Assembly: GCA_017458265.1 (NCBI GenBank)
Contig: JAFTFV010000009.1
Coordinates: 1-51,563 of the forward strand
DNA length: 51,563 nt
Direction: 5' to 3'
Origin: Bacteroidales bacterium
GTDB taxonomy: Bacteria; Bacteroidota; Bacteroidia; Bacteroidales; UBA932
The position numbers and the translations under genes were made by a program. Numbering within the stretch: position 1 is the first letter of the stretch; each line of letters begins with the position of its first letter. Below, one piece after another: positions 4,824 through 51,563 of the stretch. The notes beneath the pieces were generated by a model. It searched no databases. It saw only the letters and a list, made by a program, of their open reading frames with translations, and was not told where the DNA came from.

Positions 4824-4826
4824 GGC

Positions 4827-33816: not shown

Positions 33817-33849
33817 GGTTTTATCGTTAGCTTTACAAATATGGCAGCT

Positions 33850-33931
33850 CGTCCTCAAAAACGGCCCAAATCAAGGACGGACCCCCATCCAAACGGGTAT
33901 CCGTCCTTAAAATTGGCCTTTTTCAAGGATG
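33850..33931. repeat. Two-unit array of the 30-bp palindrome (52-bp period)
   Basis: Units at 33850-33879 and 33902-33931 are separated by a 22-nt spacer. Reverse-complemented, each reads as a left arm CGTCCTTG or CATCCTTG, a GGCC-centred core and a right arm ending AGGACG. The spacer, in that orientation, ends GGATGGGGGTC and resembles the spacers of the array at 47859-47992. The array fills the gap between the chimeric gene and the histidine phosphatase gene. Confidence 0.85.
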
Positions 33932-33935
33932 AAAC

Positions 33936-35411: not shown

Positions 35412-35412
35412 G

Positions 35413-37860
35413 TTAATTCCAGGAGTCGAGTTTGATTTCAGCGCCGGGGGCGGTGCAGAGTACGGTGCGGGATTCACCGGGAAGAAGGGAGATGAAATTG
35501 TCTTCCCAGATTGCCCCGCCGATGAGGTGTCCGTCGGCCCCGAAGGCTTTGAGGATGTTCTGGAAGGACACCACCTCGGAGTTGTTGGTGAGCTTTACGC
35601 TGATGCCGCCGTCCACCGGAGTGGTTTCAAGGGAGACATCGGCACTCGGAAGGGCAGAGACGAAGGAGAGGTCTGCATAGCCGGTCATGGGGATGCCCCA
35701 CCAGTCGGCCTTGTCCCAGGCGTATTCGCCGTTCTTTGCAGGAATACAGTAGAAGTTGCGGGCGACTACTGAACCGGAGGCATCCTTGAGGACGAGGGAA
35801 AGGAAGCCGGGAACGCCTGCAGGCAGCTTTTCAAGCTTTACGGGCTTTCTCTCCTCAGAGAGGAAAGAAACCGTTTTGCCGATGAGTTTCCGGCTGTCGG
35901 CCCCGAGGAAGACGATGTCGGCACTGTAGCGGGCCTCGGGGGCGGCGTCGTTCACGGCATAGACGGTGCGGTCTCCGTAATTATATATTAATTGCACGGG
36001 CGCGCACGCGTGTTTTACGCCATAGTATCCGGCCGTTGGAACGCCGTACCAGTCATAGAGCTGCCAGTACAGCGACGGCCATGCGCTGTTAAGCATCCAG
36101 TTCACGATACCCGTAGCCTTGCCGATATTGCAGCGGAAGGCCTCGTACATGGAACGGGTGGCGTCGTAGTCAAGGGCGTGGGCCTTCTTCACGAAGTCTC
36201 CGAAAGAGCCGGCCTTGCCGTAGGTTCCGTCCATTGCGGCCTCTTCGATCTTCGTATTGTTCATGTGTGAAGAGGAAGCCGTGCAGTGGTAATCCCATGC
36301 CGGGCCCAGGGGCCATGCAGCCTCGCCGCCAAGGAGGCGCTCAACGTTCTCCTTCTGGGGCATGTTCATGCCGGGATTGGTCTCCGTGTTGAAGCCGTAA
36401 GCGCCGCCGCGCCTGGTGTCGATGAACCAGTAGTCCGGGCCCACATACTCGTAGGGACCGGCCATCTTCATGCCCGAGGGACCTGTAACGGGGCTTTTCA
36501 CGCCGGAGGCAGAGCACACATAAGGCCTGTATTCAAGGGCGTTGTAGAGTTCCATGTACTTCTCCTCAAGCTGCGGGAGAGGTGCCCTGTCGCTGCCGGT
36601 GAGCCAGCCGATGAGGGAAGCGTGGTTACGGAGGCGGATGATCTGGTCGTGGAAATACCTCACGGCCATGGACTCCCAGGGCTCACCGTCGATGCAGCCG
36701 TTGCGGCGGGTTTCAGTAAGGCCGCAGTAGTCTTCCCACTCCCACTGGCAGCTGAAGCCCATAAGGGTGAGGATGCCAAGGCTGTCGCACACGTCGTAGA
36801 CGGTGTCGTCCTTGCCCCATACATTCTCGAAGCGGATGCTGTTAAGGCCCATGTCCCTGACCATCTGAACCTGGCGGAGAATGCTTTCGGGGGTGTCCTG
36901 CATGAAGATGTCGTCGGCCCAGCCGGCGCTCTTCACGAGGACTTTCTTTCCGTTCAGGATGAACTGGCGGTGACCGTCTGCCGTAATCTCGGAAGCTATG
37001 TCACGGATGCCGAAGCGGACGCTCTTGGAGTGGGAATCCCCAAAGCTCACCGTCATGTGATAAAGCTCGGGAGAACCCATCTCTGCGCTCCACCAGATGC
37101 GGGGGTTCTTCACGGTTTCGGTATGCCTCAGAACCTTGGTCTCAGAAGCCTCCAGGCTCACGGGAACCTCAAAGCAGATATCCTCTGCCGATGCCTTCAC
37201 CGCGCCCTCCACGGGCTTGTCAAGAAGGTTCACCAGGGTCACCTCGACCTCTATCTTTGCCTCTGAGAAATCCTCAACGTTCACGATGGGCTTCACGAAA
37301 ACGTCCTTTACCTCAACGTCCGGAGTGGAGATGAGGCGCACGGGGCCCAGGATGCCCATTGTCTCGTCCACGGGGCGGGGATTCCAGTCTACCCAGCCGT
37401 GGTTGAGGGACTGCGCAGGAGCCTTGTGAACCGTCACCTTGAGGGTGTTTGAGGCCTTTGCAAGGCGGGTGATGTCGAATTCACGCACGCAGAAAGGGCC
37501 AAGCGTGGTATCGGCCGCGGCAATGGTCTTTCCGTTGAGGACGATGTCTGCGCTGTAGCCGAGGCTTTCGAAGCGGAGAACGTGGCGGAGGCCCTTCTCT
37601 GCGCCGAACCTGGTTGTGAACACCCACGGCGTATCGAAAACGGTCTTGTCGATGTCCTTGTAGCGGAGGCCTTCAAGGATGCCTTCCCCGAAATAGCCGG
37701 CCTCGTTGAGCGCACCGGCCACCGTGCATGGAGCCTTGACGCTGTAAACCTGTGAGGAGCCCTCCTGTTTCATGCTCCAGTCTGTGAGCACGCTCACAGG
37801 AGCGGGGGCGGAACATGCAAGGCAAAGTGCCATGACAGAGATTAAGGAAACTGTTTTCAT
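35413..37860 (-). CDS. GH2-family exo-beta-D-glucosaminidase-like glycoside hydrolase
   Basis: ATG 37860 (MKTVSLISVMALCLAC, lipoprotein signal) is used; upstream sequence in this frame overlaps the ROK gene and is not coding-like. The 815-residue protein has the GH2 sugar-binding, immunoglobulin-like and TIM-barrel domains. It matches the CsxA group: SAGWADDIFMQDTPESILRQ, GLNSIRFENVWGKDD, GWLTGSDRAP with acid/base Asp 424, and FNTETNPG with nucleophile Glu 493. The SD motif in place of the usual GH2 NE and the spacing of 69 fit exo-chitosanases, which remove GlcN from the non-reducing end of chitosan-type chains. It lies 5 nt after the ROK gene and 1 nt before the alkaline phosphatase start, in one operon. 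Confidence 0.88.
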   Translation of the reverse strand: MKTVSLISVMALCLACSAPAPVSVLTDWSMKQEGSSQVYSVKAPCTVAGALNEAGYFGEGILEGLRYKDIDKTVFDTPWVFTTRFGAEKGLRHVLRFESLGYSADIVLNGKTIAAADTTLGPFCVREFDITRLAKASNTLKVTVHKAPAQSLNHGWVDWNPRPVDETMGILGPVRLISTPDVEVKDVFVKPIVNVEDFSEAKIEVEVTLVNLLDKPVEGAVKASAEDICFEVPVSLEASETKVLRHTETVKNPRIWWSAEMGSPELYHMTVSFGDSHSKSVRFGIRDIASEITADGHRQFILNGKKVLVKSAGWADDIFMQDTPESILRQVQMVRDMGLNSIRFENVWGKDDTVYDVCDSLGILTLMGFSCQWEWEDYCGLTETRRNGCIDGEPWESMAVRYFHDQIIRLRNHASLIGWLTGSDRAPLPQLEEKYMELYNALEYRPYVCSASGVKSPVTGPSGMKMAGPYEYVGPDYWFIDTRRGGAYGFNTETNPGMNMPQKENVERLLGGEAAWPLGPAWDYHCTASSSHMNNTKIEEAAMDGTYGKAGSFGDFVKKAHALDYDATRSMYEAFRCNIGKATGIVNWMLNSAWPSLYWQLYDWYGVPTAGYYGVKHACAPVQLIYNYGDRTVYAVNDAAPEARYSADIVFLGADSRKLIGKTVSFLSEERKPVKLEKLPAGVPGFLSLVLKDASGSVVARNFYCIPAKNGEYAWDKADWWGIPMTGYADLSFVSALPSADVSLETTPVDGGISVKLTNNSEVVSFQNILKAFGADGHLIGGAIWEDNFISLLPGESRTVLCTAPGAEIKLDSWN

Positions 37861-37865
37861 AGTCG

Positions 37866-38684
37866 TTATTTTAACTCTGCAGCTCCAAGGATGGGAATTT
37901 CGCCCTGGGGCATGACTTCTATACGGAGAAAATCGAGCGGATAGGGATAACCCCTCCTGAGGGCTTCCCACATGCTGTCCTTGAAATGGTCGTAGGAGTT
38001 TGCCACGCCGCCGCCAAGGACGATGCAGTCCGGATCGTAGGCAAACATCACGAGGGCGAGAAGGTTCCCAAGGTGCATGCCGAACTCCCTTTCGACTGCA
38101 AGGGCTCCGGGGTCTCCGGCTTCGGCCTTCCTGCCCAGCTGCTTGCCGCTCCATCCGCGGTCCGTGAAGAACTTCTTGGAGCAGAAGGTCTCATAGTCTG
38201 CACCGTTGTACTGTGCAGAGCCCAGTTCGCCGATTCCGCAGCGGGAGCCGCACAGCAGTTCCCCGTCCTTGATTACGCCCATTCCGAGGCCGGTACCGAG
38301 GGTTATGCCCACCATGACGGGATACACTCTGTCCAGCTTGGTGGCCGCGCCGACGGCGAAGCAGTTGGAGTCGTTGTTGATATGTACGGGAATTCTCAGG
38401 CGCCATTCGAGTTCATCCTTCAGATGGACTTCGTCCCATGAAGGTATGTTCATCGCCTGATAGACGATGCCCTTCACGGGATCGACGATTGACGGAACGC
38501 CTATGCCGATGCTCTCCACCTCTGGGACGAGCGCTTTCGTGATAGCTTCCGCGAGATAATTCAGGGTTTCTGCCTTGGTGGCATTGGGGGTAAAGGAGGG
38601 TATAGTTTCAGTCCTTATAACACGGCCTTCTTCTACAAGACCGATATTAATAGTAGTGCCTCCGATGTCGATTCCAAGTAACAT
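37866..38684 (-). CDS. ROK-family sugar kinase
   Basis: The 272-residue protein has the N-terminal phosphate-binding MLLGIDIGGTTINIGLV and the ROK motifs INNDSNCFAVGAA (catalytic Asp) and LGTGLGMGVIKDGELLCGSR. A C-terminal adenosine-binding GGGVANS is also present. The zinc-binding C-x-C-G-x-x-G-C-x-E motif of many ROK kinases is reduced to CGSRCGIGELGSAQYNG. It phosphorylates a hexose or amino sugar. Next to exo-glucosaminidase and hexosaminidase genes, GlcN or GlcNAc is the likely substrate (inference). It is the first gene of an operon with the GH2 and alkaline phosphatase genes; promoter at 38720-38713. Confidence 0.88.
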   Translation of the reverse strand: MLLGIDIGGTTINIGLVEEGRVIRTETIPSFTPNATKAETLNYLAEAITKALVPEVESIGIGVPSIVDPVKGIVYQAMNIPSWDEVHLKDELEWRLRIPVHINNDSNCFAVGAATKLDRVYPVMVGITLGTGLGMGVIKDGELLCGSRCGIGELGSAQYNGADYETFCSKKFFTDRGWSGKQLGRKAEAGDPGALAVEREFGMHLGNLLALVMFAYDPDCIVLGGGVANSYDHFKDSMWEALRRGYPYPLDFLRIEVMPQGEIPILGAAELK

Positions 38685-38712
38685 CCGATAATAATTAAGT
38701 AGGTTAGTACTA

Positions 38713-38720
38713 CAAAATTA
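38713..38720 (-). promoter_or_regulatory. -7 element of the ROK-GH2-phosphatase operon
   Basis: TAATTTTG on the minus strand lies 29 nt before the ROK ATG, in the 73-nt gap after the XylR-type regulator gene. Confidence 0.5.
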
Positions 38721-38757
38721 CTATCGGACGTTGCGGTTTTTGACTCAATTTGCGTAT

Positions 38758-39927
38758 TTATACTCCCATTTTGCGCAACTCGCGGGCCCTGTACTCACTT
38801 GGAGTGCATCCTTTGAGCTCACGGAAGCGGCGTGAGATACTTTTGGTGTCGGGCTCGTCCATGCGGGCGGCAATCTCGGAAATGGTGTCGTTGGAGGTTA
38901 TGAGCTGGTGCGCAAAATACTCCATCCTGAGCACCGACATCATGTTGTAGATGGTGGTCCCCACCACCTCCTTGAAGCGCTGCTCCAGCAGGCGGCGGGA
39001 CACCGGAACCTGCTTCAGGACGTCTGAAACGAGGATTTTCCGGCTGCGGTTTTCGTAGATGTACCTGATGGCCTTCGCCACCACCTCGTCCTTGGTGGCG
39101 ACGATTCCGGTAGAAGCCCTGCCAACTACGGAAACCGGCTTGATGACAATGTCTTCGCCTTTGTAATTCGGGTCCTCAACCATGCGGGCGGCCATTTCAG
39201 CCGCCTCGAAACCGGCCCTTTCAATATCCATCTCGATGGACGTGATGGCCGGAGATGACAGGTTGCACGTGACCTCGTCGTTGTCCACGCCGATGATGGC
39301 GACATCCATCGGCACGTTGATTCCCGCCACGTGGCATGCCTCGACCAGGATTTCGGCCTGGTTGTCGTCACAGGCGAATATGCCGATGGGCTTTGGCAGC
39401 GTAAGGAGCCACTGCAGGAGCTCAGGACGGTCGTAGTTCCACAGGCTGTTGATCTGCTGGCGGTCGTAGACGTGGAGGCGGTCGCCTTGCCCTTCGGCCA
39501 CCAGGCGGTTCCTGAAACCGTCCAGACGGCCGTCGCTCCAGCACACGCCGTTGTAGCCGAAAAAGCCGAAGTTCTTGAGTCCGTGGCCGAAGAAGCGCTG
39601 GGCTGCCATGGAGCCTGTGAGTTCATAATCGGCAGTGATGTTGGGGATGCTGCTGAAGGGGGTTACGTAGTCCTGGGCTATGGCCACGATGCCGTTCCTG
39701 CGGAAGATAGACACGTCGTCCCTGGGGTCGAACTGGCCGATTACGGCGTCGGCCCTCCACCTCTTCGCCCAGGCCACGAATTTCTTCAGGCCGATTTCCC
39801 GCTTGAAGGACGGCGGCATCTTGCACACCTCCCATACCTGGCCCGTCCGCCTGGAATAGTCAAGGATTCCGCGGAGGAGCCGGTACGGGAACTGCTCGGT
39901 AAAGTCTGAAATGAATAGAAGGCGCAT
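38758..39927 (-). CDS. XylR-type regulator (LacI-like sensor plus AraC DNA-binding domain)
   Basis: The 389-residue protein lacks an N-terminal HTH. It starts with a periplasmic-binding-protein-like sensor (RLLFISDFTEQFPYRLLRGI, GIFACDDNQAEILVEACHVA, VAIIGVDNDEVTCNLSSPAI) over residues 1-270 and ends with an AraC double HTH (VSDVLKQVPVSRRLLEQRFK, EIAARMDEPDTKSISRRF). E. coli XylR has the same architecture. It probably binds a sugar released by the neighbouring hydrolases and controls the ROK-GH2 operon just downstream. The start overlaps the GH20 fusion stop by one base (TGATG). Confidence 0.9.
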   Translation of the reverse strand: MRLLFISDFTEQFPYRLLRGILDYSRRTGQVWEVCKMPPSFKREIGLKKFVAWAKRWRADAVIGQFDPRDDVSIFRRNGIVAIAQDYVTPFSSIPNITADYELTGSMAAQRFFGHGLKNFGFFGYNGVCWSDGRLDGFRNRLVAEGQGDRLHVYDRQQINSLWNYDRPELLQWLLTLPKPIGIFACDDNQAEILVEACHVAGINVPMDVAIIGVDNDEVTCNLSSPAITSIEMDIERAGFEAAEMAARMVEDPNYKGEDIVIKPVSVVGRASTGIVATKDEVVAKAIRYIYENRSRKILVSDVLKQVPVSRRLLEQRFKEVVGTTIYNMMSVLRMEYFAHQLITSNDTISEIAARMDEPDTKSISRRFRELKGCTPSEYRARELRKMGV

Positions 39928-42900
39928 CAGTTCTTGTGATAGGAAATACCAAGGCTGTCATAGTAGGGGAACTCCCACTGCTGCACTGTGCTGTAGAAGC
40001 GGTCGAAGTCTGAAAGGAAGGCGGGGTCGTCGGCCCTGGTGGTTCCCTGCCAGGAAGGGCTTGCGTTCCAGCCCCTCTCCAGAAGGCCGAGGGCCTTGGG
40101 GAAGAGGTAGTAGGTCACATGGTCGAAACTGCGGATGGTCTCGCTCCAGAGCTGCCCCTGTACGCCGATGATATTCTGAGGGGCTTCCAGGGCCGTTTTT
40201 CCATCTGCCGCGTGGGAAATGTCCTTAATCTTTCCGTGGTCGTCCCAGCGTACTGAACGGTACATGTCGTAAGGCAGCAGGGAGAAGGAGCGCCGCTCGT
40301 CCACGAAACCGCCCCAGGAGTGTCCCCTCTCCAGCTTTGAGTCATTGTAGGCAAAGTCAAAATAGGCGTTGGGGGCCGATGAAATGACCACCGGAACACC
40401 CTTGTTTGCGAGCTGGTAAGGAAGTTCCTCGCGCCCGTGGGAGACGGTCCATACGTTGGTGAAGCCAAGGCCCTTCGAAAGCTTTGCCTCCGTCGAAGGC
40501 TGCAGCTTGAGGACCAGCTCCTGCCAGCCGCCGATACGGACTCCGCGGCTTATGGCTATGTCAAGGACGCGGCTCACGTAGTAGTCCTTGAGGCGTTCCA
40601 CGCTCCTCCAGCCGTTCTTCTGCATGAGCTTCTGACATGCGGGAGAGCCTATCCAGGCGCCATCCGGCACCTCGTCGCCGCCCACATGGATGGTCTCAAG
40701 CGGGGCTCCGGCTTCCCTGTAGAGGGCGATAAGGCCGTCGAACACGGTCTCAACGAACTTGTAGGTAGATTCAAGGGCTACGTTCACGGCATTGTCCGTA
40801 TAGTCCTGGACCGATACGTACTTGGATGTATCGCCGGGCTCGGAAAGGAGGCAGGAGGTGTCTCCGGTGAGCCTTGCCCTCTCTTCCATAGCCTTGATTG
40901 CAGCGCGGGAATGGCCGGGAGTATCAAACTCCGGAATCACGCGTATATGGCGCTCGGTGGCATATTTCAGTATCTCCACAAAGTCCTTGTGGGAGTAGTA
41001 TCCGTTTGCCGACGTGCTCCTGTCATACCTGTCCATGGCCACGCAGTAAGTGGGCTGAAGGGCGTCCGGCTCGGAGATGGTGCCGTCTTCGTTCAGGACT
41101 GGAAGGCCGCGGAAGGCGCCGTAGGAAGTGAGTTCCGGAAGGGCGTCTATCTCCACCCTCCAGCCTTCGTCGTCTCCCATGTGGAGATGAAGGACATTGG
41201 CCTTGTAGTGAGCCATGAGGTCAAGGAGTTTGAGGAGACCTTCCTTGGAGGTGAAGTTGCGGCTCACGTCCAGCATGAGGCCGCGGTACTGAAGGTCAGG
41301 CCAGTCTTCGATGACCATCGCCTGGACGGGTTTTCCGGCGGCGCGGCCGCGGATCTGGTCAAGGGTGTTCTTTGCCCAGAAGGCGGCGTCCCCATCGGCA
41401 CATTCAAGCTCTGCGCGGTCCCCGGAAATGGTTATCCTGTACCAGCCGGGCTTCTGCCCCGGCACGGTTGACGTGCTTGTGAAATCGGCGGGGAGAAGGG
41501 TTGCAGGGGCGTTCAGGGCGGTAACGCTCTTGAGGGCAGGGACCATGTCGGTGATGCTCACGTCAACCTTGTTCCACTCGAAAGAATGCTTTGGCTGGGC
41601 TGGCTGATAGTTGTATTTCGCCTCTATCCTTGCCGCCGGGAAGCCGTCCCTCACGAGCACGAAGCCTTCAGGTGCCCGGCACTGGTTCACAAGGGTGCGG
41701 GCCTCATACCTCAGGTGGAAGGTTTCGCCCTTGGTGTCCACGGTGGGGACGATGCGGTAGAGGGTACCGCTCACGTGCTCGATGGTTCCGTCGGAGCCTT
41801 CCAGCATGGTGATGGGGGTGCGGAACTGGCTGAGCCAGACATACCAGGATGTTCCTGCGGGAGGATTGGTGATATCCATGTTGTACACGCTCCTGCTGCC
41901 GGAAACAGGCTTTCCCTCAGTCCAGCTCACTACGGATTTCACTCCGTAGCCAAGGTAGGTCTTGTAGTCTTCCCAGTCGTAGTAGGGACCACCCTTCAGG
42001 CCGATGATACGGATTTCCCTTTCGTTCAGGAGGGGTTTCACAAGGACGTTTCCTTCCTTGTTGCGATAGAATATGAGCTGGATGTTGGCGGCGAAGGGGG
42101 TGTAGCGCCAGCCGGGCCAGTTAACGCAGGTCTTGGCGTCCAGGCGCTCTGCAACGCCTTCGAAGCCAAGGAGGGAGGCAAGCGCAAGCACCTGGTAGTC
42201 GTGTCCGTAGCGGAGGTCGGCGCAGAATTCGCCAGTAGCGATGGCTGCATCGGCCTTGGTGACGATGTCCACGATTCCGGGACGGGCCCTTTCCATGCGC
42301 TCGTCGCCGAATTCTACGGAATTGCACTGGCCCAGGTAGAAATTCATGGAGAGGGCCTGGGCATACCAGTAGAGCTCATCGGCGCTGAAAAGGCGGAAGA
42401 GGCGGTCGTCCAGCTCGAAGGCGGGGCAGGTGGTTGCCATGTTGAAGGTGTTCTGCATGAATTCTGTGCGGCTGCCGATTATTTCGCGGGCCCTGGCCTG
42501 GTCCGTGAACACCCTGGCGCAGAAGGCCGTGGGATCCGGTTTGTGCTGCTTCCAGTAATCGGCCATGATCCTGTGGATGCCGGCGCGGGCTTCACGGGTG
42601 TGGTCCGAGCTGATGTACTTCTGGAAGGTCTCGCCGGTGTCCCAGCGGATGTCCAGGTCCTTCTGGAGGGACTGGAGCATGGCCGTTGCCGCGTTCATGG
42701 AGATGATGCAGCGGGGCGTCATCGAGGATATTGCCGATACTTTCTTGCTTCCTTTCCTGAAGACATCCCTGTAGTTATTGTACATGCGTGAGGCTATCTC
42801 ACGGTGCTCCTGCTGGCCAAGGCGGGTGAGACGGCCGTCCATGTGGTCGTGGAGACGCACGGCCTCTGCAATCTGTTCGCGGGCGGCTTCACCTTCGGCG

Positions 42901-43187
42901 GTGAGGATGCCGGCCTCGTGGGCCTTGTTGTACTTTTCAAGTATGTCGGCATACATCTTTCCCTCCCAGTTGGAGCGGGAACCGTGACGGCCGTAATGGC
43001 TGATGTAGAAAGGCTTGTAGCCCTTCGGGGCGGCTGTCTGCGGGCCTGGGATATACTCGTAGGGGTCCATGTTCATTGCCGTACGGAAGACGTTTTCCTG
43101 ATAATCGGCAACAAGGGCGGGGTCTTTCTCCTGGGCGCCGAGGGCCAGAGAAATAACAAGGAGAATGGGTATCAGCAATCGTTTCAT
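39927..43187 (-). CDS. Histidine acid phosphatase fused to GH20 beta-N-acetylhexosaminidase
   Basis: The 1086-residue secreted protein starts with a signal peptide (MKRLLIPILLVISLALGAQ). Residues 20-430 are a complete branch-2 histidine phosphatase: RHGSR at 67-71, GHDYQVLALASL, and homology along the whole length with the separate phosphatase at 32545-33816. After an Ig-like linker and a GH20b domain, residues ~620-1080 are a GH20 barrel: YRGLMLDVSRNFTSKEGLL, LHLHMGDDEGWRVEI, RVIPEFDTPGHSRAAI and the catalytic pair D838-E839 in HVGGDEVP. The expected action is removal of a phosphate and of a terminal GlcNAc/GalNAc from one substrate. It is co-transcribed with the PD40 gene (12-nt gap) and the XylR-type gene. 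Confidence 0.9.
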   Translation of the reverse strand: MKRLLIPILLVISLALGAQEKDPALVADYQENVFRTAMNMDPYEYIPGPQTAAPKGYKPFYISHYGRHGSRSNWEGKMYADILEKYNKAHEAGILTAEGEAAREQIAEAVRLHDHMDGRLTRLGQQEHREIASRMYNNYRDVFRKGSKKVSAISSMTPRCIISMNAATAMLQSLQKDLDIRWDTGETFQKYISSDHTREARAGIHRIMADYWKQHKPDPTAFCARVFTDQARAREIIGSRTEFMQNTFNMATTCPAFELDDRLFRLFSADELYWYAQALSMNFYLGQCNSVEFGDERMERARPGIVDIVTKADAAIATGEFCADLRYGHDYQVLALASLLGFEGVAERLDAKTCVNWPGWRYTPFAANIQLIFYRNKEGNVLVKPLLNEREIRIIGLKGGPYYDWEDYKTYLGYGVKSVVSWTEGKPVSGSRSVYNMDITNPPAGTSWYVWLSQFRTPITMLEGSDGTIEHVSGTLYRIVPTVDTKGETFHLRYEARTLVNQCRAPEGFVLVRDGFPAARIEAKYNYQPAQPKHSFEWNKVDVSITDMVPALKSVTALNAPATLLPADFTSTSTVPGQKPGWYRITISGDRAELECADGDAAFWAKNTLDQIRGRAAGKPVQAMVIEDWPDLQYRGLMLDVSRNFTSKEGLLKLLDLMAHYKANVLHLHMGDDEGWRVEIDALPELTSYGAFRGLPVLNEDGTISEPDALQPTYCVAMDRYDRSTSANGYYSHKDFVEILKYATERHIRVIPEFDTPGHSRAAIKAMEERARLTGDTSCLLSEPGDTSKYVSVQDYTDNAVNVALESTYKFVETVFDGLIALYREAGAPLETIHVGGDEVPDGAWIGSPACQKLMQKNGWRSVERLKDYYVSRVLDIAISRGVRIGGWQELVLKLQPSTEAKLSKGLGFTNVWTVSHGREELPYQLANKGVPVVISSAPNAYFDFAYNDSKLERGHSWGGFVDERRSFSLLPYDMYRSVRWDDHGKIKDISHAADGKTALEAPQNIIGVQGQLWSETIRSFDHVTYYLFPKALGLLERGWNASPSWQGTTRADDPAFLSDFDRFYSTVQQWEFPYYDSLGISYHKN

Positions 43188-43199
43188 ATTGTGTGGTGT

Positions 43200-44699
43200 T
43201 TATTCTTCAAGGCGTGCCTGGGAAACGCTTATCTGGCGGCCGTCCTTCCAGGCGATTATGACGGCGTCGGGGAAGCCCTGTGCGCGCACCGTGTTAAGCT
43301 GGGCAAGGGCGTCATAATAGTGCTCGAAAATGCCCACGGAGTATATGTAGCGCAGGTTCGGGGACAGGATGCGGTATACGGGAGTAAGGCCGCCGAGGGC
43401 CTCCACGTCAAGCGTCCTGGTGGCCTGGGCGAACTGTATCTGGTACACTATGCCGGGCGGCAGGGTGTTGTCCTGTGCCATTCGGCCCACGGGCATGACG
43501 CGGAAGGAAGTATTGGGGCGGGGCTTGTCTATCTTGATGCGTATCCTGGGGCCCAGGGAATTCTTGGTGAAGGTGTAGCTGAGGCCTTCGCCGGCGATTT
43601 CCTTGTCCTCCTTCTCCGTTACCATGCCGGTCTTGAGGAAGGAGTCGGAAAGCTGGTTCTTCTTCTTGTTCAGCTCCGTGATCCGGGCCATGATCTCGTC
43701 GGAACGGGCGGTGTCTTCATCCCCGGCGTGGACGGCAAGGGAGTCCCTGAGGGCACGGATTTCGGCATTGATGCGGCTGTAGGTGATGGAATTGTCAGTC
43801 TCTTCCACCTCCTCCATGAGGGCGCCCTGGTCCATTCGGCCCAGCTCTTCCACGGGGGTCAGGGAGGCAATCCTCACGATGTCTTCGTGGTCGATGACCA
43901 TCTTCCTGTCGCGGGAACCGGCGTAATCCAGCACGTAGACGTAGACGCTGTCGGAGGAGCAGTCGCGGTTGGAGGCGAAGATGGTATATCGGCCGTCATC
44001 GGTGTCCATGAGGAGAAAGTCGTCTCCCGGGGAACTGAAGGGGAAGCCCATGTTCTGGGGCTCGCTCCAGGCCTTTGCCTCTTCGTCCCAGTTGGAGAAG
44101 TAGAGGTCATATCCGCCGATGCCGTAGAGGCCGTCGGAGGAGAAGTAGAGGGTCTTTCCGTCCGGGGATAGCATGGGAAAAATCTCGTTCCCGAGGGTTG
44201 TGAGGCTTTCTCCGAGAAGGCGGGGCGCCGTCCAGCTGCTGTCCGTGCCGTGGGTGTAGAAGAGGTCCCTCACCCCGGCCCCGTCCTGTGCCGAGAAGAC
44301 TATGCTCCTGGCGTCTTTCGGGAAATAAGTGGGGAGGCCGGCAAGGGAATCCAGCACGTTGGGGCTCGAATGCCAACTCTGCGGCTTCACGGGATAGTAC
44401 TGGAAGAAGTCCTTGCGGGAGAAGCGCTCCCTGGTGACCACGTGGGGGTCTGCGCAGATTTCGGTCATGTTTATGGCGTACTGGACCTGCTGGCCGCGTT
44501 TTTCCAGGATACGCACGGTGGCGGGGTCGTCGGCAATGTCCATGGCCGCCATGTATTTCTCCACGGCCTGCTGGAAGAGGTAGCGCCGGTGAAGGCTGTC
44601 TCCCTGCTCCATCAGACGCTCTACGGAACGGTCCTGCCCCGACAGGTCAAGCCCCGTCGCAACCAGCGTCAGAATTATGCCCAGCAGTACTTTGCGCAT
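43200..44699 (-). CDS. PD40 beta-propeller protein with TPR start and SPOR-like end
   Basis: The 499-residue protein has a signal peptide (MRKVLLGIILTLVATGLDLS) and a TPR-like N-terminus (QGDSLHRRYLFQQAVEKYMA). WD40-like PD40 repeats follow (FPMLSPDGKTLYFSSDGLYG, IGGYDLYFSNWDE), then a coiled coil around 290-350 (SRINAEIRALRDSLAVHAGD). A C-terminal SPOR-like segment contains VYQIQFAQATRTL and YSVGIFEHYYDALAQLNTVR. SPOR domains bind denuded peptidoglycan, so an envelope role is likely. It starts the minus-strand block; promoter TATTTTTG at 44723-44716, about 17 nt before the ATG. Whether it functions with the glycan genes is unclear. Confidence 0.78.
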   Translation of the reverse strand: MRKVLLGIILTLVATGLDLSGQDRSVERLMEQGDSLHRRYLFQQAVEKYMAAMDIADDPATVRILEKRGQQVQYAINMTEICADPHVVTRERFSRKDFFQYYPVKPQSWHSSPNVLDSLAGLPTYFPKDARSIVFSAQDGAGVRDLFYTHGTDSSWTAPRLLGESLTTLGNEIFPMLSPDGKTLYFSSDGLYGIGGYDLYFSNWDEEAKAWSEPQNMGFPFSSPGDDFLLMDTDDGRYTIFASNRDCSSDSVYVYVLDYAGSRDRKMVIDHEDIVRIASLTPVEELGRMDQGALMEEVEETDNSITYSRINAEIRALRDSLAVHAGDEDTARSDEIMARITELNKKKNQLSDSFLKTGMVTEKEDKEIAGEGLSYTFTKNSLGPRIRIKIDKPRPNTSFRVMPVGRMAQDNTLPPGIVYQIQFAQATRTLDVEALGGLTPVYRILSPNLRYIYSVGIFEHYYDALAQLNTVRAQGFPDAVIIAWKDGRQISVSQARLEE

Positions 44700-44715
44700 T
44701 TTGTGTATAAGCTTA

Positions 44716-44813
44716 CAAAAATAATAAATTGTTCTGACATACTTCCTTCTATAATGAAAAAACTAAAATAGTTGGGCTAAAGTTCGGTTTATCAGAAAAA
44801 AATCGTAAATTTG
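44716..44813. promoter_or_regulatory. Divergent promoters of the PD40 gene and secDF
   Basis: The minus-strand TATTTTTG (44723-44716) serves the PD40 gene. The plus-strand TAAATTTG (44806-44813) serves secDF and leaves a leader of about 70 nt containing GC-rich complementary segments. I recognise no riboswitch in it. Confidence 0.5.
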
Positions 44814-44890
44814 CAGCCTATTTTGCCCTGGCGTGTAAGTGCGCCGGGGTTGAATGGGCTTGAACAAGTATAATTAAAACATAAACTACA

Positions 44891-47833
44891 ATGCAAAGCA
44901 AAGGTTGGATCCGTTTTGTAGCAATCCTTCTCGGCCTCGCAAGCATCTGGCAGCTTTCCTTTACTGCAATTACCCGCATTCAGGAAAGCAAGGCCCGCAA
45001 GGCGGCAGAGGCACAGGCGCTGCAATTCGTCGAAACTAACAATGTCGCACCGGAAGTGCGCGAATTCGTCCTGGACTCCGTAGCAAACATCAGGAACAGG
45101 GCTTATATTGATTCCATCGGCTCGGAAAAGGTATTCCTCGGATATACCTACCAGAGCGCCAAGGAAAAGGAAATCAACCTTGGTCTGGACCTCAAGGGCG
45201 GTATGAACGTCATGCTGCAGGTTCAGCTCGAAGACCTGGTCAAGGCCCTCTCCGGAGGCAGCACTGACCCCGACTTCGTTGCCGCAATGGAAGAAGCCAA
45301 GAAGAACAACGTCAACTCCAGCGCAGACTTCATCGGCCTGTTCCGTGAAGCGTGGGACAAGGTGGCTCCCGGCCGCCGTCTCGCAGAGATTTTCGCAACA
45401 TACGAACTCCGCGACAAAATCTCCAACGATGCCACCAACGACAAGGTCATCGAGGTTATCCGCGCAGAGGCGAAGAGCGCTGTCGACAACTCCTTCAACG
45501 TGCTCCGCAACCGTATCGACCGCTTCGGCGTAACCCAGCCCAACATCCAGCAGGTAGGCAACTCCGGCAAGATCCTCATCGAACTCCCGGGCGTCAAGGA
45601 TCCTGAGCGTGTGCGCAAGCTCCTCCAGGGCACCGCATCCCTCGAATTCTGGCCCACCTTCCAGGGCAACGAGGTAGACCTCTACGCCGTCGATGCACGC
45701 GTAAGCGAGATTCTTGGCAACCTCGGCGACTCCACCGCAGTTGCAAATCCCCTCTTCCAGGTTCTTAGCCCCAGCGGCTGGAACAACGCCTGCATCGGTT
45801 TCGCACAGGGTGTCGATACCGTTACCGTAAACCGCTACCTGGCAATGGCACAGGATGTCCTTCCCCAGGGTTTCCGCGGCATGTGGTCTGTAAAGCCCAC
45901 CGAACTCGTCCAGGGCAGCAACCTCTACGAACTGGTTGCCATCAAGGTCAACTCCCGTGACGGCAAGGCTCCCCTTGACGGCGGTGTAGTCACCGACGCC
46001 CGCGTCAACTTCAACGGCGCACAGAACGGCGGCAGCGGCGCTCCTTCAGTATCCATGACAATGAACGCTGAAGGCGCTTCCATCTGGGCTCACCTCACCA
46101 AGGACAACATCGGCAAGCAGGTTGCCATCGTCCTCGACGGTCTCGTGTACTCCTATCCTACCGTCAACGGTGAAATTACCGGCGGTTCTTCCGAAATCAC
46201 CGGCAACTTCGACGTCCAGGAAGCCGAGGACCTTGCAAACGTCCTCAAGAGCGGTAAGCTTCCCGCCCCTGCCACCATCATCCAGGAGCAGGTCGTAGGT
46301 CCTACCCTCGGTTCCGCTTCCATCAGGGCCGGTCTCATCTCCTTCATCATCGCATTCTGCCTGGTGCTCATCTACATGGTATTCTTCTACCAGGGCGCAG
46401 GTCTCATTGCCGATGTGGCTTTGCTCTGCAACGTTCTCCTCCTGTTCGGTGTCCTCGTAAGCTTCGGCGCCGTCCTTACCCTCCCGGGTATCGCCGGTCT
46501 CGTCCTTACCCTGGGTATGGCCGTTGATGCCAACGTTATCATCTACGAGCGCATCAAGGAAGAGCTGGCTGCAGGCAAGGGATTCTCCCTCGCGGTTGCA
46601 GACGGTTACAAGAACGCTTACTCCGCAATTATCGACGGTCAGCTCACAACCCTCATCACCGGTATCATCCTCTACATCTTCGGTTCCGGTCCTGTCCAGG
46701 GCTTCGCCACCACCCTCATCATCGGTATCATCACTTCAGTCCTTACCTCCATCTTCATCACCCGCATCATCTTCGATGACCGCATCAAGGCCGGTAAGAC
46801 TGTCGCCCTCTCCAACAAGCTCACCCAGAATATTCTCAAGAATACCAAGGTAGACTTCATCGGCGCAAAGAAGTGGTCCTACACCATCTCCGGAGCTCTC
46901 ATCCTCATCTCCATCGCATCCATCGCATTCAAGGGCTTCAGCTACGGTGTAGACTTCACCGGCGGCCGTACCTATGTGGTCCGCTTTGACAAGGCCGTCA
47001 CCGCAGAAGACGTGCGTGCAAGCGTAGAGGATGTGTTCAAGGCCGCCGCAGAGGCTGAAGGCATCGACCAGTACTCCGTCGAGGTAAAGCAGTTCGGTGG
47101 AGACTCCCAGATGAAGATCACCACCCAGTACAAGAACGACAGCGAAAGCACCGCCGTTGACGCAGAAATCGAAGGCCTCCTCTTCAACGCCCTCAAGGGC
47201 TTCTATGCAGAGGATATCCAGGTGAACGACTTCACCTCCACCCTGGAGAACCCCAATGGTATCATTTCCTCCGACAAGGTTGGTCCTACCATCGCCCGTG
47301 ACATCACCCGCAGCGCAATTATCGCCGTGCTGCTGGCCCTGCTTGCCATCTTCATCTACATCGCATTCCGTTTCCACGGCTGGACATGGGGTCTTGGCGG
47401 TGTGGTCTCCCTGGCACACACGGCTCTCATCGTCATCGGCTTCTTCTCCCTGTTCAACGGTATCCTTCCGTTCAACCTGGATGTAGACCAGACCTTCATC
47501 GCAGCTATCCTTACCATCATCGGTTACGCCATCAACGATAACGTGGTTATCTTCGACCGTATCCGTGAGCAGAGGGGCCTGCACCCGAAGGAAGACTTCC
47601 GTACCACGGTGAACACGGCTCTCAACGCCACCCTCACCCGTACCCTCAACACCTCGGTATCCACCCTCCTTCCTATGATTGCAATCGCAATCTGGGGCGG
47701 TGAGTCCATCCGCGGTCTTGCAGTGGCTCTCTGCCTCGGTGTCATTATCGGTACCTACGCCTCCATCATGATCGGTACTCCTATCATGTACGACGCCACC
47801 GTAGCCGCCGCCAAGAAAAAGGCCGAGAAATAA
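44891..47833 (+). CDS. secDF: Fused protein translocase subunit SecDF
   Basis: The 980-residue single-chain SecD-SecF is normal for Bacteroidota. The SecD half starts with a transmembrane helix (FVAILLGLASIWQLSFT). It carries LGLDLKGGMNVMLQV (D1 motif), NRIDRFGVTQPNIQQVGNSG, DGLVYSYPTVNGEITGGSSE and, in its membrane core, GMAVDANVIIYERIKEEL. The SecF half starts around residue 660 with SYGVDFTGGRTYVVRF and contains YAINDNVVIFDRIREQRG. The proton-motive-force-driven pump pulls exported proteins through SecYEG. Coding sequence shows strong codon bias (C-ending codons), suggesting high expression. It is followed by the three-unit palindrome array rather than a classical terminator. Confidence 0.97.
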   Translation: MQSKGWIRFVAILLGLASIWQLSFTAITRIQESKARKAAEAQALQFVETNNVAPEVREFVLDSVANIRNRAYIDSIGSEKVFLGYTYQSAKEKEINLGLDLKGGMNVMLQVQLEDLVKALSGGSTDPDFVAAMEEAKKNNVNSSADFIGLFREAWDKVAPGRRLAEIFATYELRDKISNDATNDKVIEVIRAEAKSAVDNSFNVLRNRIDRFGVTQPNIQQVGNSGKILIELPGVKDPERVRKLLQGTASLEFWPTFQGNEVDLYAVDARVSEILGNLGDSTAVANPLFQVLSPSGWNNACIGFAQGVDTVTVNRYLAMAQDVLPQGFRGMWSVKPTELVQGSNLYELVAIKVNSRDGKAPLDGGVVTDARVNFNGAQNGGSGAPSVSMTMNAEGASIWAHLTKDNIGKQVAIVLDGLVYSYPTVNGEITGGSSEITGNFDVQEAEDLANVLKSGKLPAPATIIQEQVVGPTLGSASIRAGLISFIIAFCLVLIYMVFFYQGAGLIADVALLCNVLLLFGVLVSFGAVLTLPGIAGLVLTLGMAVDANVIIYERIKEELAAGKGFSLAVADGYKNAYSAIIDGQLTTLITGIILYIFGSGPVQGFATTLIIGIITSVLTSIFITRIIFDDRIKAGKTVALSNKLTQNILKNTKVDFIGAKKWSYTISGALILISIASIAFKGFSYGVDFTGGRTYVVRFDKAVTAEDVRASVEDVFKAAAEAEGIDQYSVEVKQFGGDSQMKITTQYKNDSESTAVDAEIEGLLFNALKGFYAEDIQVNDFTSTLENPNGIISSDKVGPTIARDITRSAIIAVLLALLAIFIYIAFRFHGWTWGLGGVVSLAHTALIVIGFFSLFNGILPFNLDVDQTFIAAILTIIGYAINDNVVIFDRIREQRGLHPKEDFRTTVNTALNATLTRTLNTSVSTLLPMIAIAIWGGESIRGLAVALCLGVIIGTYASIMIGTPIMYDATVAAAKKKAEK

Positions 47834-47858
47834 TCCCGGCCCCTGACAAATGGTCTTC

Positions 47859-47992
47859 CGTCCTTGAAAACGCCTGTTTTTGAGGACGGAAGTCCGTTTA
47901 TAGGGGGTCTCGTCCTTGAAAACGCCTGTTTTTGAGGATGAAATGCCTTCTGGTGGGGGTGCCGTCCCTGAAAATGGCCAATTTTGAGGATG
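47859..47992. repeat. Three-unit array of the 30-bp palindrome (52-bp period)
   Basis: Units at 47859-47888, 47911-47940 and 47963-47992 are exactly 52 bp apart (30-bp palindrome plus 22-bp spacer). Arms are CGTCCTTGAAAAC / GTTTTTGAGGACG in the first two units and CGTCCCTGAAAAT / ATTTTGAGGATG in the third. The spacers are similar to each other (CC, T-rich, then GGGGGT), so this is a tandem element and not CRISPR. The array lies between secDF and the TPR regulator. Confidence 0.9.
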
Positions 47993-48013
47993 GAAAAGTT
48001 TTGAGTATCTTTG
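47983..48013 (+). promoter_or_regulatory. Promoter of the TPR regulator; -33 lies in a repeat arm
   Basis: TTTG at 47983-47986, inside the right arm of the third palindrome, then 19 nt, then TATCTTTG at 48006-48013. The ATG is at 48031. Confidence 0.6.
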
Positions 48014-48030
48014 CAACAATCACATTGCTT

Positions 48031-49656
48031 ATGTTCCCAAGAGCCAACGTATCCGTTCTTACGCTGCTTGTCGCCCTCTCCATTATGTCATGCGGTCAGG
48101 CCGTAGTCCATAAGTTGGAGGATATCGAGTCATATGCAGAAATGTCGCCAGACAGCGCACTCAAGTCCTTATCGGCCATTGACAGCTCTGACGTGCAAAA
48201 GGGTCGAGCCCGGGCGATGCATACCTATGTTCGCTCTCTGGCACGATACAAGGCATATATTGACGAATATGACGATACCGATATTTCCGATGCAGCTGAG
48301 TACTTTCACGGGCACAATGACAAGGCAAGGGAAATGCGGGCCCTGTTTTTCAAGGGTTATGCACTTTATAACGCAGGAAAGCTCAATCAGGCCATCATAG
48401 CTTTTACCGATTCGGAAAAGATTGCAGAAGAACTGGGAGACTATTTCTACGCCGGTCTCTGCTGCAGGGAAATGGCCGATATTTTTAGCAAGACTTACTC
48501 CCCGGATGATAATCTGGCATATGCAATCAAGGCCAGGGATTATTTTAATAAGGGGGGATATCCGCTACATGAAATAAACGTGCAGTGTCAAATTGGGCAA
48601 GCTTATATGCAGAAAGGAGACAACGAGGAGGCGTTTGGCTTCTTTTCAAATATTGCAGATCAAGCCAGAACCATTGGTGATACATTATTGTTGAAAAACG
48701 CCTTGGTGCCAATGGCTGAATTACTAACGCTATCAAACAAAAACCAAGAAGCCATCCAAACATTTTTATACGTACGGGATTCTCTAAACTATTCCCTTGG
48801 GTGTTTCGCTCTGGCTTGCATGGCCAGGGCTTATGCTCAGAGCGGTGATTCTATCTCCTCAATTAATTATTTCAATACGACCTTGGAATTGGCAGCATCA
48901 CCAAAAGAGCGATATGACGTTGATTATCAGGGATATTTTATCTTTAAGACTCTCGGGAACAATGATATGGCCTTAAAATATCTGGAACGTGTTTTTAAAT
49001 TTGCTACTGCCAATAATGAATATACACAAAGCAGGAATACGGCAATGTACACCCAGCGAGATTATTTTATTGAAAAACAAAAGGTTGAACAGACAAGCAA
49101 AGAACTGACCCAGCAGCGGCTATACACAACCATTTCCGTTTCTGCTCTGCTAATCTTGATTGCCGTAATGGTTCTGGCCGAACTTTACAAGAGGGTGAAA
49201 AGGAACAAACTCGAAAAAGAGCTGCTTGTCAACAGAATTAACAATCTTTCCAACGAGCACTCCGACAACATGAAGATATCCCAGCGCTACGGAATGGAGT
49301 TTTTTAATGATTTAGCACAGCTCTATTGGCAGAATCAGCCGGACAAGGTCCTACAGGAATTGAAGAGCACCGTCTCTCGTCTCGGGAAAGATGAAGAAAC
49401 CATGTCAAGGATGATTGCTACCGTAAACCAGACACATAACAATATCCTTGTCCGCTTATCAGAGCAGGTCCCGGCACTTAATGCCAAAGAAATAAAATTG
49501 TTCTGTTTTTTGGTCTGCCAGATGAGCCATAATGCCATATGCCTGATCACAGACAAGACCCCCGCTGCATTGAACTCCAATATCTATAGATTAAGGAGTA
49601 AAATTGACGCGTCAGAGGCTCCAGACAAGCTGGAATTTCTCGATAGTATATCTTAA
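48031..49656 (+). CDS. TPR-transmembrane regulator with C-terminal HTH-like domain
   Basis: ATG 48031 begins a lipoprotein-like signal (MFPRANVSVLTLLVALSIMSC). The 541-residue protein has about six TPR-like helical pairs (residues 80-370; ALFFKGYALYNAGKLNQAI, INVQCQIGQAYMQKGDNEEA). A transmembrane helix follows near 375-400 (TISVSALLILIAVMVLAEL), then a basic coiled coil (KRVKRNKLEKELLVNRINNL). The C-terminus has a LuxR-like helical arrangement (LNAKEIKLFCFLVCQMSHNA, LNSNIYRLRSKI). It is the Bacteroidota architecture of a periplasmic TPR sensor joined to a cytoplasmic DNA-binding end. It probably regulates the two genes downstream. Codon use is more AT-rich than in the housekeeping genes. Confidence 0.78.
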   Translation: MFPRANVSVLTLLVALSIMSCGQAVVHKLEDIESYAEMSPDSALKSLSAIDSSDVQKGRARAMHTYVRSLARYKAYIDEYDDTDISDAAEYFHGHNDKAREMRALFFKGYALYNAGKLNQAIIAFTDSEKIAEELGDYFYAGLCCREMADIFSKTYSPDDNLAYAIKARDYFNKGGYPLHEINVQCQIGQAYMQKGDNEEAFGFFSNIADQARTIGDTLLLKNALVPMAELLTLSNKNQEAIQTFLYVRDSLNYSLGCFALACMARAYAQSGDSISSINYFNTTLELAASPKERYDVDYQGYFIFKTLGNNDMALKYLERVFKFATANNEYTQSRNTAMYTQRDYFIEKQKVEQTSKELTQQRLYTTISVSALLILIAVMVLAELYKRVKRNKLEKELLVNRINNLSNEHSDNMKISQRYGMEFFNDLAQLYWQNQPDKVLQELKSTVSRLGKDEETMSRMIATVNQTHNNILVRLSEQVPALNAKEIKLFCFLVCQMSHNAICLITDKTPAALNSNIYRLRSKIDASEAPDKLEFLDSIS

Positions 49657-49683
49657 TCGATTAATAATCAGCACATTACAGCA

Positions 49684-49728
49684 ACGAAAGGCGTAACGCG
49701 TTGACTATTAGCGCGTTACGCCTTTCGT
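49684..49728 (+). terminator. Long hairpin after the TPR regulator
   Basis: A perfect 17-bp stem (49684-49700 with 49712-49728; it begins ACGAAAGGCG and ends CGCCTTTCGT) with an 11-nt loop is followed by CATTTTAAC. It is a likely terminator, unusually long. The remaining DNA to 49884 is AT-rich and holds only a weak promoter-like GACCTTTG at 49849-49856. Confidence 0.65.
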
Positions 49729-49884
49729 CATTTTAACATCGCGCCCTTTTTCATTAGTGCCTGATAATCAGCCACATACGTGCCTGTTTCTATTGGTTTC
49801 GTCATTTTGTTTTAGATATTTTTTGGAGCATTTCCTCATTTATTTTGAGACCTTTGCAGTCACAAATCATTAAACAAAACTACG

Positions 49885-50265
49885 ATGAAAAACACAACAC
49901 TATTCATTGCCACAGTAGCAGGAATAACTATCTCTTCTGTCTGTTCTGCAGATGAACACAACATCATTATTAATATTCCACAATCTACGCCTGAAGAGGT
50001 GCCGTCTAAACCCCATGCCCCCGCACGACCGGTTGCCCAGGGATATTATGACATGGAATCCTCAATACTCTATCTGAACTTCAATAGAAACATGGAAAAC
50101 TGCACTATTGAGGTATCAAGTACCGCAGGTGATTATCATATTGAAAATCTGTCATCCTCTAACAGTTCGGTCTCATTAGTTTTATCAGGGGCTCCTGGGC
50201 TTTATGTGATTGCTCTTACATTCAAAGAAGGGGCACAGATTGGAACACAATTCTTAGTGTTTTAA
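49885..50265 (+). CDS. Small secreted DUF3244-type protein
   Basis: The 126-residue protein has a signal peptide (MKNTTLFIATVAGITISSVCSA) and a mature part typical of DUF3244: a Pro-rich lead (PSKPHAPARPVAQGYYD), then beta strands ILYLNFNRNMENCTIEVSST, SSVSLVLSGAPGLYVIALTF and a final GTQFLVF. These small Ig-like proteins are common in Bacteroidota and resemble the end domains of secreted proteases; no activity is known for free-standing forms. It starts 24 nt before the lipoprotein gene, so the two form an operon. Low GC compared with neighbours. Confidence 0.75.
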   Translation: MKNTTLFIATVAGITISSVCSADEHNIIINIPQSTPEEVPSKPHAPARPVAQGYYDMESSILYLNFNRNMENCTIEVSSTAGDYHIENLSSSNSSVSLVLSGAPGLYVIALTFKEGAQIGTQFLVF

Positions 50266-50289
50266 TTTATTTTTAATACTAAGCATTTT

Positions 50290-51441
50290 ATGGAAAGACT
50301 ATCTAGATTATTTATTCTCTTTTTAATACTTGGCATATCATCTTGTTCCAAAGACATAAAAGAACCTATTAAGGACCAAGATGATTTTAGCCAATTTGCT
50401 ATTACGCTTTCTAAAGCTATATACAATGAACAAGCTCTTCGTGAGATTATTCGAGAAGAATCATTAAAGAAATTTGATAACGACTATGATGTTCTATATT
50501 GGAATATAAGGAATCGTACTATTGGCAATAAAAGGGTTGAAGATCTTATTCTCCAGTATGACAATACACCTGGAGAGCTCATAAAAACAATCGAGCGACA
50601 TCCCTTGCTGACAATTTTTGTTGCCGATTGGAAATTTATAAATAGTATTTGTGCAGAATCTTGGGACGTTAACGATCCTAAAGTTCTTGTTGCTTCTGGA
50701 GCCGAAACAAAAAAACATACCCTGTGGGGGAATGGAGAAATAATCACCGTTCTTAGTCCGGATGAGTTTCCTCCATTAGTAACTTTGATAGTAAAAGATA
50801 ACGAACGAGTAAGAGTTTCTCCATCAACTAAATCTGGAAGTTTCTCATTTGACTTTATTGACCCGTGCTATGATCCAAGCAACAACTCTTCGGCGACAAA
50901 ACTAGACTGGGTGCCACGTGGCGAACAAGAGGTTCAAACAATACAAGAAGATGATTTCCTTTCACCAGAAGAAGTTGGAGAGCCCAGCATAACTGCTTAC
51001 AATTTGTTTCACAACAATTCTGCAGCCAAACATAGAGACTTCATTTATTATGGGATGACTGGCCCAAACCAAGAGCGCGAAGTTAACAATAACATCTCTG
51101 AGGTTCTATACCAAATTCGTTTTTCTAATGCCGCAGCTAATGCGCTATATGATGATATTACGCCGGGGTATGAAGACCCTAAGTTGTCTAACGACTGGAT
51201 AGTAAGCATGGACCGGCGTCTTTCAAGTGCAGAGCTCATTAGCAGGTACTGGGTTGACGGGCAACTTGAATTGCGATTCCAGCTTTTTTCTGTAACAAAA
51301 AACGGAACTATTGCTTTAATAGAAAAGACACACAGTGTTTATTTCTACGACTTATTCTACCTTAAAAAGGCTTACACAGATATAAAGCATGAGACCTTGT
51401 TCAACTGGAACACAGACTATAAATCACTAATGTCCCGTTAA
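50290..51441 (+). CDS. Unrecognised AT-rich lipoprotein
   Basis: The 383-residue protein has a lipoprotein signal (MERLSRLFILFLILGISSC, Cys 19). The mature part starts with an acidic/basic linker (SKDIKEPIKDQDDFSQFAIT) and a helical region (YNEQALREIIREESLKKFDN). The second half is rich in Asn, Ser, Tyr and aromatic beta strands (ISEVLYQIRFSNAAANALYD, LELRFQLFSVTKNGTIALIE). I recognise no family and no catalytic motif. It is in an operon with the DUF3244 gene and clearly AT-rich compared with the rest of the window, suggesting recent acquisition. Probable surface or periplasmic lipoprotein. Confidence 0.6.
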   Translation: MERLSRLFILFLILGISSCSKDIKEPIKDQDDFSQFAITLSKAIYNEQALREIIREESLKKFDNDYDVLYWNIRNRTIGNKRVEDLILQYDNTPGELIKTIERHPLLTIFVADWKFINSICAESWDVNDPKVLVASGAETKKHTLWGNGEIITVLSPDEFPPLVTLIVKDNERVRVSPSTKSGSFSFDFIDPCYDPSNNSSATKLDWVPRGEQEVQTIQEDDFLSPEEVGEPSITAYNLFHNNSAAKHRDFIYYGMTGPNQEREVNNNISEVLYQIRFSNAAANALYDDITPGYEDPKLSNDWIVSMDRRLSSAELISRYWVDGQLELRFQLFSVTKNGTIALIEKTHSVYFYDLFYLKKAYTDIKHETLFNWNTDYKSLMSR

Positions 51442-51492
51442 GGGACGGTTAAACGTTTATAACTATATTATTTTTAACTACTTACAAAGCTT

Positions 51493-51550
51493 TTTGGGTG
51501 TGCACGATATAATTTGATATTTTTGCGGCAGTTACCAGTGTTATTGCCGC
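51493..51550 (+). promoter_or_regulatory. Promoter and 5' hairpin of a transcript leaving the window
   Basis: TTTG (51493-51496), 21 nt, then TATTTTTG (51518-51525) form a good promoter. It is immediately followed by a hairpin GCGGCA/TGCCGC (51525-51530 with 51545-51550). No coding start is evident before the window ends, so a structured small RNA is possible. Confidence 0.4.
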
Positions 51551-51563
51551 CATGCCACCTCAA

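Follow-up and report, generated by a model that had tools for sequence, protein, structure and literature searches.

The palindromes described here are very probably REP-type elements of a divergent Bacteroidales RAYT family, RAYT standing for REP-associated tyrosine transposase. Their likely source is a RAYT gene that the same genome carries on contig C50, and we propose a mechanism in which two hairpins would take part. They were found in a 51,563-nt stretch of Bacteroidales DNA (the window), and they seem to be dispersed mainly as doublets, with two like-oriented hairpins centred 52 bp apart. More tentatively, we suggest that RAYTs of this family act only on two head-to-tail hairpins 50-52 bp (about five helical turns) apart, a ruler and not a sequence being conserved, and that the arrays might also serve as fixed junctions for gene inversion, deletion and swap between sister species.

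Palindromes in the window

Six imperfect palindromes of 30 bp are present in the window, as the preliminary description had stated. Three form an array on the forward strand (47859-47888, 47911-47940 and 47963-47992), separated by 22-nt linkers at 47889-47910 (with CCGTTTATAGGGGGT) and 47941-47962 (with GGGGGT). The first unit (P1) is predicted to fold with its flanks as a 17-bp hairpin (z -4.8); nothing in the sister species G081, with its two units at this place, corresponds to the second (z -4.6), and the third is more decayed (z -2.3). Two further palindromes lie at 33850-33879 and 33902-33931, and a single unit, assigned to neither strand, is found at 16118-16147 with convergent genes on either side. 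The 52-bp period holds in both multi-unit arrays, and Tandem Repeats Finder reports 47858-47992 with period 52 and a score of 151. When the consensus 30-mer was searched with up to 3 mismatches, there was one match in the window (16118) and none in 100 dinucleotide shuffles. No Rfam family matched within the window at gathering thresholds.

The spacers had been described as sharing CC, a T-rich stretch and GGGGGT, and they do, provided that the array at 33850, which is in the opposite orientation, is read on the minus strand (linker 33880-33901, CCCGTTTGGATGGGGGT). On our reading of that strand, 33902-33931 is the first unit of a doublet and 33850-33879 the second, the latter with a broken stem (alone z -0.46). 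The distance from this doublet to a His_Phos_2 gene is 33 bp, and to the next gene 4 bp. The three-unit array begins 25 bp downstream of the end of a SecDF gene (44891-47833; Pfam), and a TPR gene follows it.

A degenerate core noted earlier near 4433 has the centre AAAAACGGCC in common with these units, but its outer arms differ (TGAGCCTACC...GGTAGGCTCA). It sits in a 104-bp stretch (4393-4496) that is 97% identical to another place in G081, adjoining the orthologue of the doublet on contig C37. Because of this match elsewhere in the sister genome, we read the core as a probable REP-like relic of another palindrome family.

Copies across the genome

A scan of the whole genome (2,133,001 bases in 67 contigs) for the unit pattern TCCTYRAAAAYGSCYNTTTTYRAGGA, allowing 3 mismatches, revealed further copies: 40 forward and 36 reverse rows, corresponding to 40 distinct places, compared with 0 and 1 for the reversed pattern. 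A covariance model of the doublet, built from 17 sequences and giving rough E-values, returned 55 rows in this genome at E<=1, both strands counted. Together with two more-decayed units, the 40 places make up 42 units in 22 arrays, namely 12 doublets, 7 singles, one triple and two quadruples. Neighbouring units are spaced by exactly 52 bp in 17 of 20 cases, the others being 50, 51 and 54 bp.

The arrays are largely intergenic. Twenty of the 22 touch no called gene in DNA that is 86% called coding, a rough figure, since the genes were called by a crude home-made codon-usage caller that misses real ones. One of the two overlapping arrays lies at a TTG-extended start and the other reaches 9 bp into the end of dnaE. 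Counts of tandem, convergent and divergent neighbours are not used, given that genes such as a HipA-like one escape the caller.

Each array can be oriented by its asymmetric linker (CCGTTT...GGGGGT), which runs in the same direction throughout every array of three or four units. On the GGGGGT strand the stems of 37 oriented units hold 51 G-T wobbles compared with 26 A-C mismatches, a count made with a strand-symmetric pattern from units that are related and thus not independent. Both hairpins of a doublet favour wobbles on this same strand. From the same-strand wobbles and the one-way linkers, the two hairpins are judged to run head-to-tail and not inverted. A wobble count per locus is left out of account, as the method used to find palindromes is itself biased towards G-T pairs.

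Some other features were observed beside these arrays. On contig C48 a different palindrome, GCTCCARGTGTCCC...GGACCACYGGGAGC, occurs as two units 52 bp apart (L030 827-861 and 879-913, G000:C48), and allowing up to 3 mismatches reveals no others in the genome. On the same contig an antisense copy of the dnaE 3' end is found upstream of dnaE (L030 920-1008 and 4680-4782, G000:C48); it joins the REP linker at the shared letters CGGAGGTCC, and its sequence looks as if it had been copied from the inverted array at the far end of dnaE. These extra bases, roughly 130 in number, are missing from G081. A recG gene (Pfam) is located between two opposite single palindromes with about 27 bp of flank in common (L028 about 3468-5718, G000:C11:84467-86718).

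A RAYT gene between the largest arrays

The densest cluster of palindromes is on contig C50, where reading of the open reading frames between two arrays located a gene missed by Pfam (C50:34258-35184). It encodes a 308-aa protein with VMTNHFHFVLEG. One four-unit array (35188-35373) starts 3 bp past its stop codon and the other (33298-33481) ends 776 bp upstream of the gene, from which a 172-aa ORF separates it; they are the largest arrays of the genome and the only ones of four units found. The bracketing of a RAYT-like gene by the two largest arrays of this palindrome supports a REP/RAYT reading, and with it the earlier proposal of a REP- or BIME-like family possibly spread by a RAYT encoded elsewhere.

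The protein is a divergent one. It has no match to Pfam Y1_Tnp and scores 13.3 bits against NCBIfam REP_Tyr_transpos, below the cut-off of 80. Its motifs NHFH and Y---N are kept in relatives. Across 33 aligned relatives the residues H66, H68, Y124, R127 and N128 never change; 17 of the 33 match REP_Tyr_transpos (NF047646) at E<=0.01 (best 4.5e-7) and 4 match Pfam Y1_Tnp. A PDB sequence search gave nothing better than E 0.13, to IS200-type transposases. The AlphaFold2 model of one relative, L112 (mean pLDDT 91.1), has the predicted order strand-helix-strand-strand-helix...strand-helix followed by a mostly helical C-terminal half, with HUH beside or on strand 67-72 and Tyr124 within helix 115-132, which we take to be the order expected of an HUH Y1 enzyme.

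Pfam Y1_Tnp has five matches in the genome. Four are RAYT-like proteins that were rejected as the source, their neighbouring palindromes being different and forming no 50-52-bp arrays in our search (the position of the one on C14 is approximate). The fifth (L025) was set aside as no transposase-like ORF is listed there.

Spacing beside related RAYT genes

The surroundings of 87 RAYT genes were compared, comprising the best 80 of at least 90 confirmed relatives and 7 paralogues from the genome itself. The 80 are Bacteroidales or Bacteroidia records, many from rumen or gut, and include Candidatus Cryptobacteroides, Candidatus Egerieousia and one Rikenellaceae. Within about 1 kb of the RAYT gene we counted pairs of similar palindromes at distances of 28-66 bp. 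At the loosest thresholds these 87 loci yield 109 such pairs (19 at 50 bp, 63 at 51, 26 at 52, a single one at 63). The strictest thresholds leave 72, of which 71 fall at 50-52 bp and the other is again the 63-bp pair. Depending on which of three thresholds is used, 34, 40 or 44 of the 87 loci have a 50-52-bp array, and 16 of the 44 have arrays on both sides of the gene. The other 43 show none, among them 11 in which one of the two flanks is shorter than 1 kb. Farther from the RAYT gene within these loci, 10 of 17 pairs are at 50-52 bp and 7 elsewhere (39, 42, 45, 54).

Over the 44 loci the period is 51.0 with a standard deviation (SD) of 0.6, whereas the palindromes (mean length 32, SD 4.1) and the linkers (mean length 19, SD 4.3) vary; what is kept is therefore the centre-to-centre distance. 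Stem sequence varies among loci, examples being CAAAAGAACAAAA, GGGCACGGAAA and CGAGCAGG. The relative L083, 44% identical to the C50 RAYT, has a stem nearly identical to that of the window element at a spacing of 51 bp, and L079 and L112 (50 and 48% identical) have stems of the CGTCCGGAAAAACGGCC type, in which two pairs are changed on both sides. A second RAYT gene of the genome (C28) has 51-bp arrays of another stem on both sides. Arrays of 50-52 bp are also present in both large clades of the RAYT tree. The register of about 51 bp belongs to the whole RAYT family and not to the palindrome sequence of the window.

It might be argued that this register is a historical accident, each family having grown by slippage or recombination from one founding doublet and having inherited 50-52 bp without need. 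In its favour, slippage does keep the period of a tandem repeat, and 17 of the 20 spacings in our genome are exact. The exact period (50, 51 or 52) is only weakly clustered on the RAYT tree, which it hardly follows (33 changes, as against 37.4 on average after shuffling; 7 of 200 shuffles gave a number as low). But stems and linkers have been wholly replaced between families while the period has stayed within an SD of 0.6, palindrome and linker lengths each vary by an SD of about 4 nt, and neutral drift should have produced spacings such as 45 or 58 as well. We regard an accidental register as rather unlikely.

The single exception near the 87 genes (best 80 of at least 90 relatives plus 7) is a more distant paralogue with 63-bp spacing (L160 3770, G000:C20). 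As 63 bp is about six turns, this one case would suit the helical-phase idea set out below. The RAYT gene of Candidatus Egerieousia equi (L143 about 4272-4850) is followed by a long array of 52-bp units in which 12 palindromes were counted.

Distribution among genomes

Relatives of the C50 RAYT were found in 33 of the 37 genomes of the genus searched (our own included) and, at E<=1e-5, in none of 24 other families of the order. A RAYT profile at E<=1e-10 matched 3 of 198 genomes of the order, namely our own, one of the same genus and one weak case. The doublet covariance model, whose E-values are rough, matched 90 of 200 genomes of the genus at E<=0.01, ours included; for the more complete genomes the figure is 31 of 80. 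Copy number is patchy by the strict sequence pattern, which occurs in 6 of 61 relatives, with 30 copies in our genome and 1 or 2 in each of the other five.

Such patchy copy number bears on a second alternative, in which the palindromes are host-function elements, acting either as RNA hairpins where transcripts end or as DNA sites bound by a nucleoid or regulatory protein, the RAYT adjoining them by chance or having been co-opted. The intergenic position of 20 of the 22 arrays (coding fraction 0.86) would agree with this, as would the closeness of 52 bp to five helical turns, a spacing that phased protein sites would have. RNA folding, proposed earlier as a check, is good for the first two units of the array at 47859. 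However, no T-run follows the palindromes and none of the 13 terminator-like sites in 33000-48500 is a whole palindrome (a small one at 33890-33875 includes linker bases), so that intrinsic terminators were rejected. Stem changes within the family go without compensation: covariation is 0.134, compared with a shuffled mean of 0.170, no excess of compensating changes, and so lends, as judged from the sequences, no support to selection on the stem. The largest arrays bracket a RAYT gene, and in relatives the stem changes along with the RAYT. A host function accordingly seems improbable. The idea of decayed or cas-less CRISPR arrays, prompted by the exact register of 30-bp palindromic repeats and 22-bp spacers, can be dismissed, as the preliminary description had itself recognised that the spacers are conserved, which holds for the linkers of 17 doublets including those of unlinked arrays, most arrays have two units and the repeats flank a RAYT gene.

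Comparison with a sister species

G081 is 96% identical to our genome over SecDF, and the two differ at several arrays. On contig C27 our genome has one unit and G081 two, the difference being exactly 52 nt between flanks that agree. After SecDF there are three units in our genome as opposed to two in G081, where they are 53 bp apart. Beyond this array G081 has a glycoside hydrolase family 2 gene (found on our contig C22) in place of the TPR gene of the window, and the part of the window after the array, TPR gene included (48000-51563), has no nucleotide match in G081 apart from the repeat. Two neighbouring genes of C50 sit in segments bounded by doublets (L026 2855-6247, G000:C50). One, with a VWA domain, has the opposite orientation in G081, and the inversion (C50:23.5-25.2 kb) has inverted doublets on its two sides. 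The other, a HipA-like gene, is absent from G081, and our segment L026:2855-4528 has no match there other than repeats.

These unit gains and losses and rearrangements could be due to plain recombination between repeats. The comparison turned up no clean empty site for an entire doublet, so that movement as such was not seen. The regions compared were all chosen for holding arrays and both genomes are drafts; since short repeats in draft assemblies can give false joins, the rearrangements need confirmation by long reads. As marks of rearrangement points between sister species, the arrays matter for genome evolution in gut Bacteroidales and for assembly quality.

A proposed two-hairpin mechanism

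The constant distance of 50-52 bp suggests that two neighbouring hairpins are processed as a pair, or else that the units are recognised in phase. Transposition by the RAYT might begin when a strand becomes single, for example as the lagging-strand template, and each palindrome folds into a hairpin. The HUH/Y1 enzyme would then bind the folded single strand and cut near the foot of the hairpin, by analogy with what the accessible sections of PMC8266576 relate of studied TnpA_REP enzymes. An adjacent pair of hairpins at about 51 nt would be the substrate that fits the enzyme, which might act as a dimer with each subunit taking one hairpin; alternatively, the units may lie in helical phase (about five helical turns) and be held by the C-terminal domain. 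New copies of doublets would arise in trans in intergenic DNA, after which arrays might gain or lose units through recombination or slippage. As a counter-point to RAYT movement, gain and loss of units can arise by slippage without a transposase.

The features of RAYT recognition studied so far are single hairpins, bulges and tags. Here stem and linker sequence are free and the distance is held at 50-52 bp across proteins down to 25-30% identity, providing dozens of natural RAYT/REP pairs with different stems and the same geometry. Such a fixed distance reduces the question of what a RAYT recognises to one experiment on distance versus cutting.

Comparison with known systems

A search of open-licence papers brought up no 50-52-bp REP arrays in Bacteroidales and, in the portions of text that it covers, neither a fixed 50-52-bp head-to-tail register nor a RAYT family of about 300 aa with such arrays. 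In general organisation the elements resemble known REP/RAYT systems (REPtrons; TnpA_REP, IS200/IS605-related HUH Y1), with short imperfect intergenic palindromes in many copies per genome, a cognate HUH/Y1 gene flanked by the same palindromes, and stems that differ between RAYTs. In contrast to these, the consensus of 17 doublets shows no GTAG or GT[AG]G tag at the hairpin foot and GGGGGT precedes the second hairpin instead, the RAYT is about 308 aa with a long helical C-terminal part, and the head-to-tail register is fixed at 50-52 bp. Some TnpA_REP subclasses also lack the GT[AG]G tag, according to the available text of PMC6006769.

Among the closest known systems are the TnpA_REP genes of subclass 2.6 (RAYT group 5), which are likewise from Bacteroidetes and are bordered by "atypical secondary structures" that lack GT[AG]G and recur elsewhere in the genome (PMC6006769, in the excerpts available). 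In view of these structures, the earlier statement that no description of the element in Bacteroidales is known is only partly right; the same excerpts give neither 52-bp arrays nor an array register (PMC6006769). The model of the subclass has 179 aa with NH[LIV]H, WQ and YIH[QN]NP, as far as these excerpts go (PMC6006769). Our proteins have about 308 aa with NHFH or NHLH and Y-[VIN]-x-R-N; membership was rejected on length (308 as opposed to about 179 aa) and on Y124-x-x-R127-N128 in place of YIH[QN]NP, a comparison by motif only.

The units start with CGTC, as do the CGTC-tagged REPs, a superfamily reported from Bacteroidetes among five phyla. The accessible part of that report describes an unpaired CGTC tag, a stem of 8-9 bp, negligible head-to-tail dimers and no known dedicated transposase (PMC3733652). 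Here CGTC lies inside the stem, paired with GACG, and this assignment was rejected on that ground; the stem reaches 13 bp, head-to-tail dimers occur and a RAYT is linked.

As with the REPINs of Pseudomonas, the doublet is the commonest form, tandem clusters exist, and some singles may be remnants of doublets (here the C27 unit, by comparison with the sister species). REPINs consist of two inverted REPs with a variable spacer, common spacings in SBW25 being 71 and 110 bp in the passages available (PMC3116915, PMC8049555). The present arrays show no inversion, with wobbles on the same strand and one-way linkers in arrays of 3-4, and were not classed as REPINs. In these arrays, unlike REPINs, the hairpins share one orientation, the linker is conserved within a family, and the spacing is 50-52 bp in every family with an array detected near its RAYT gene.
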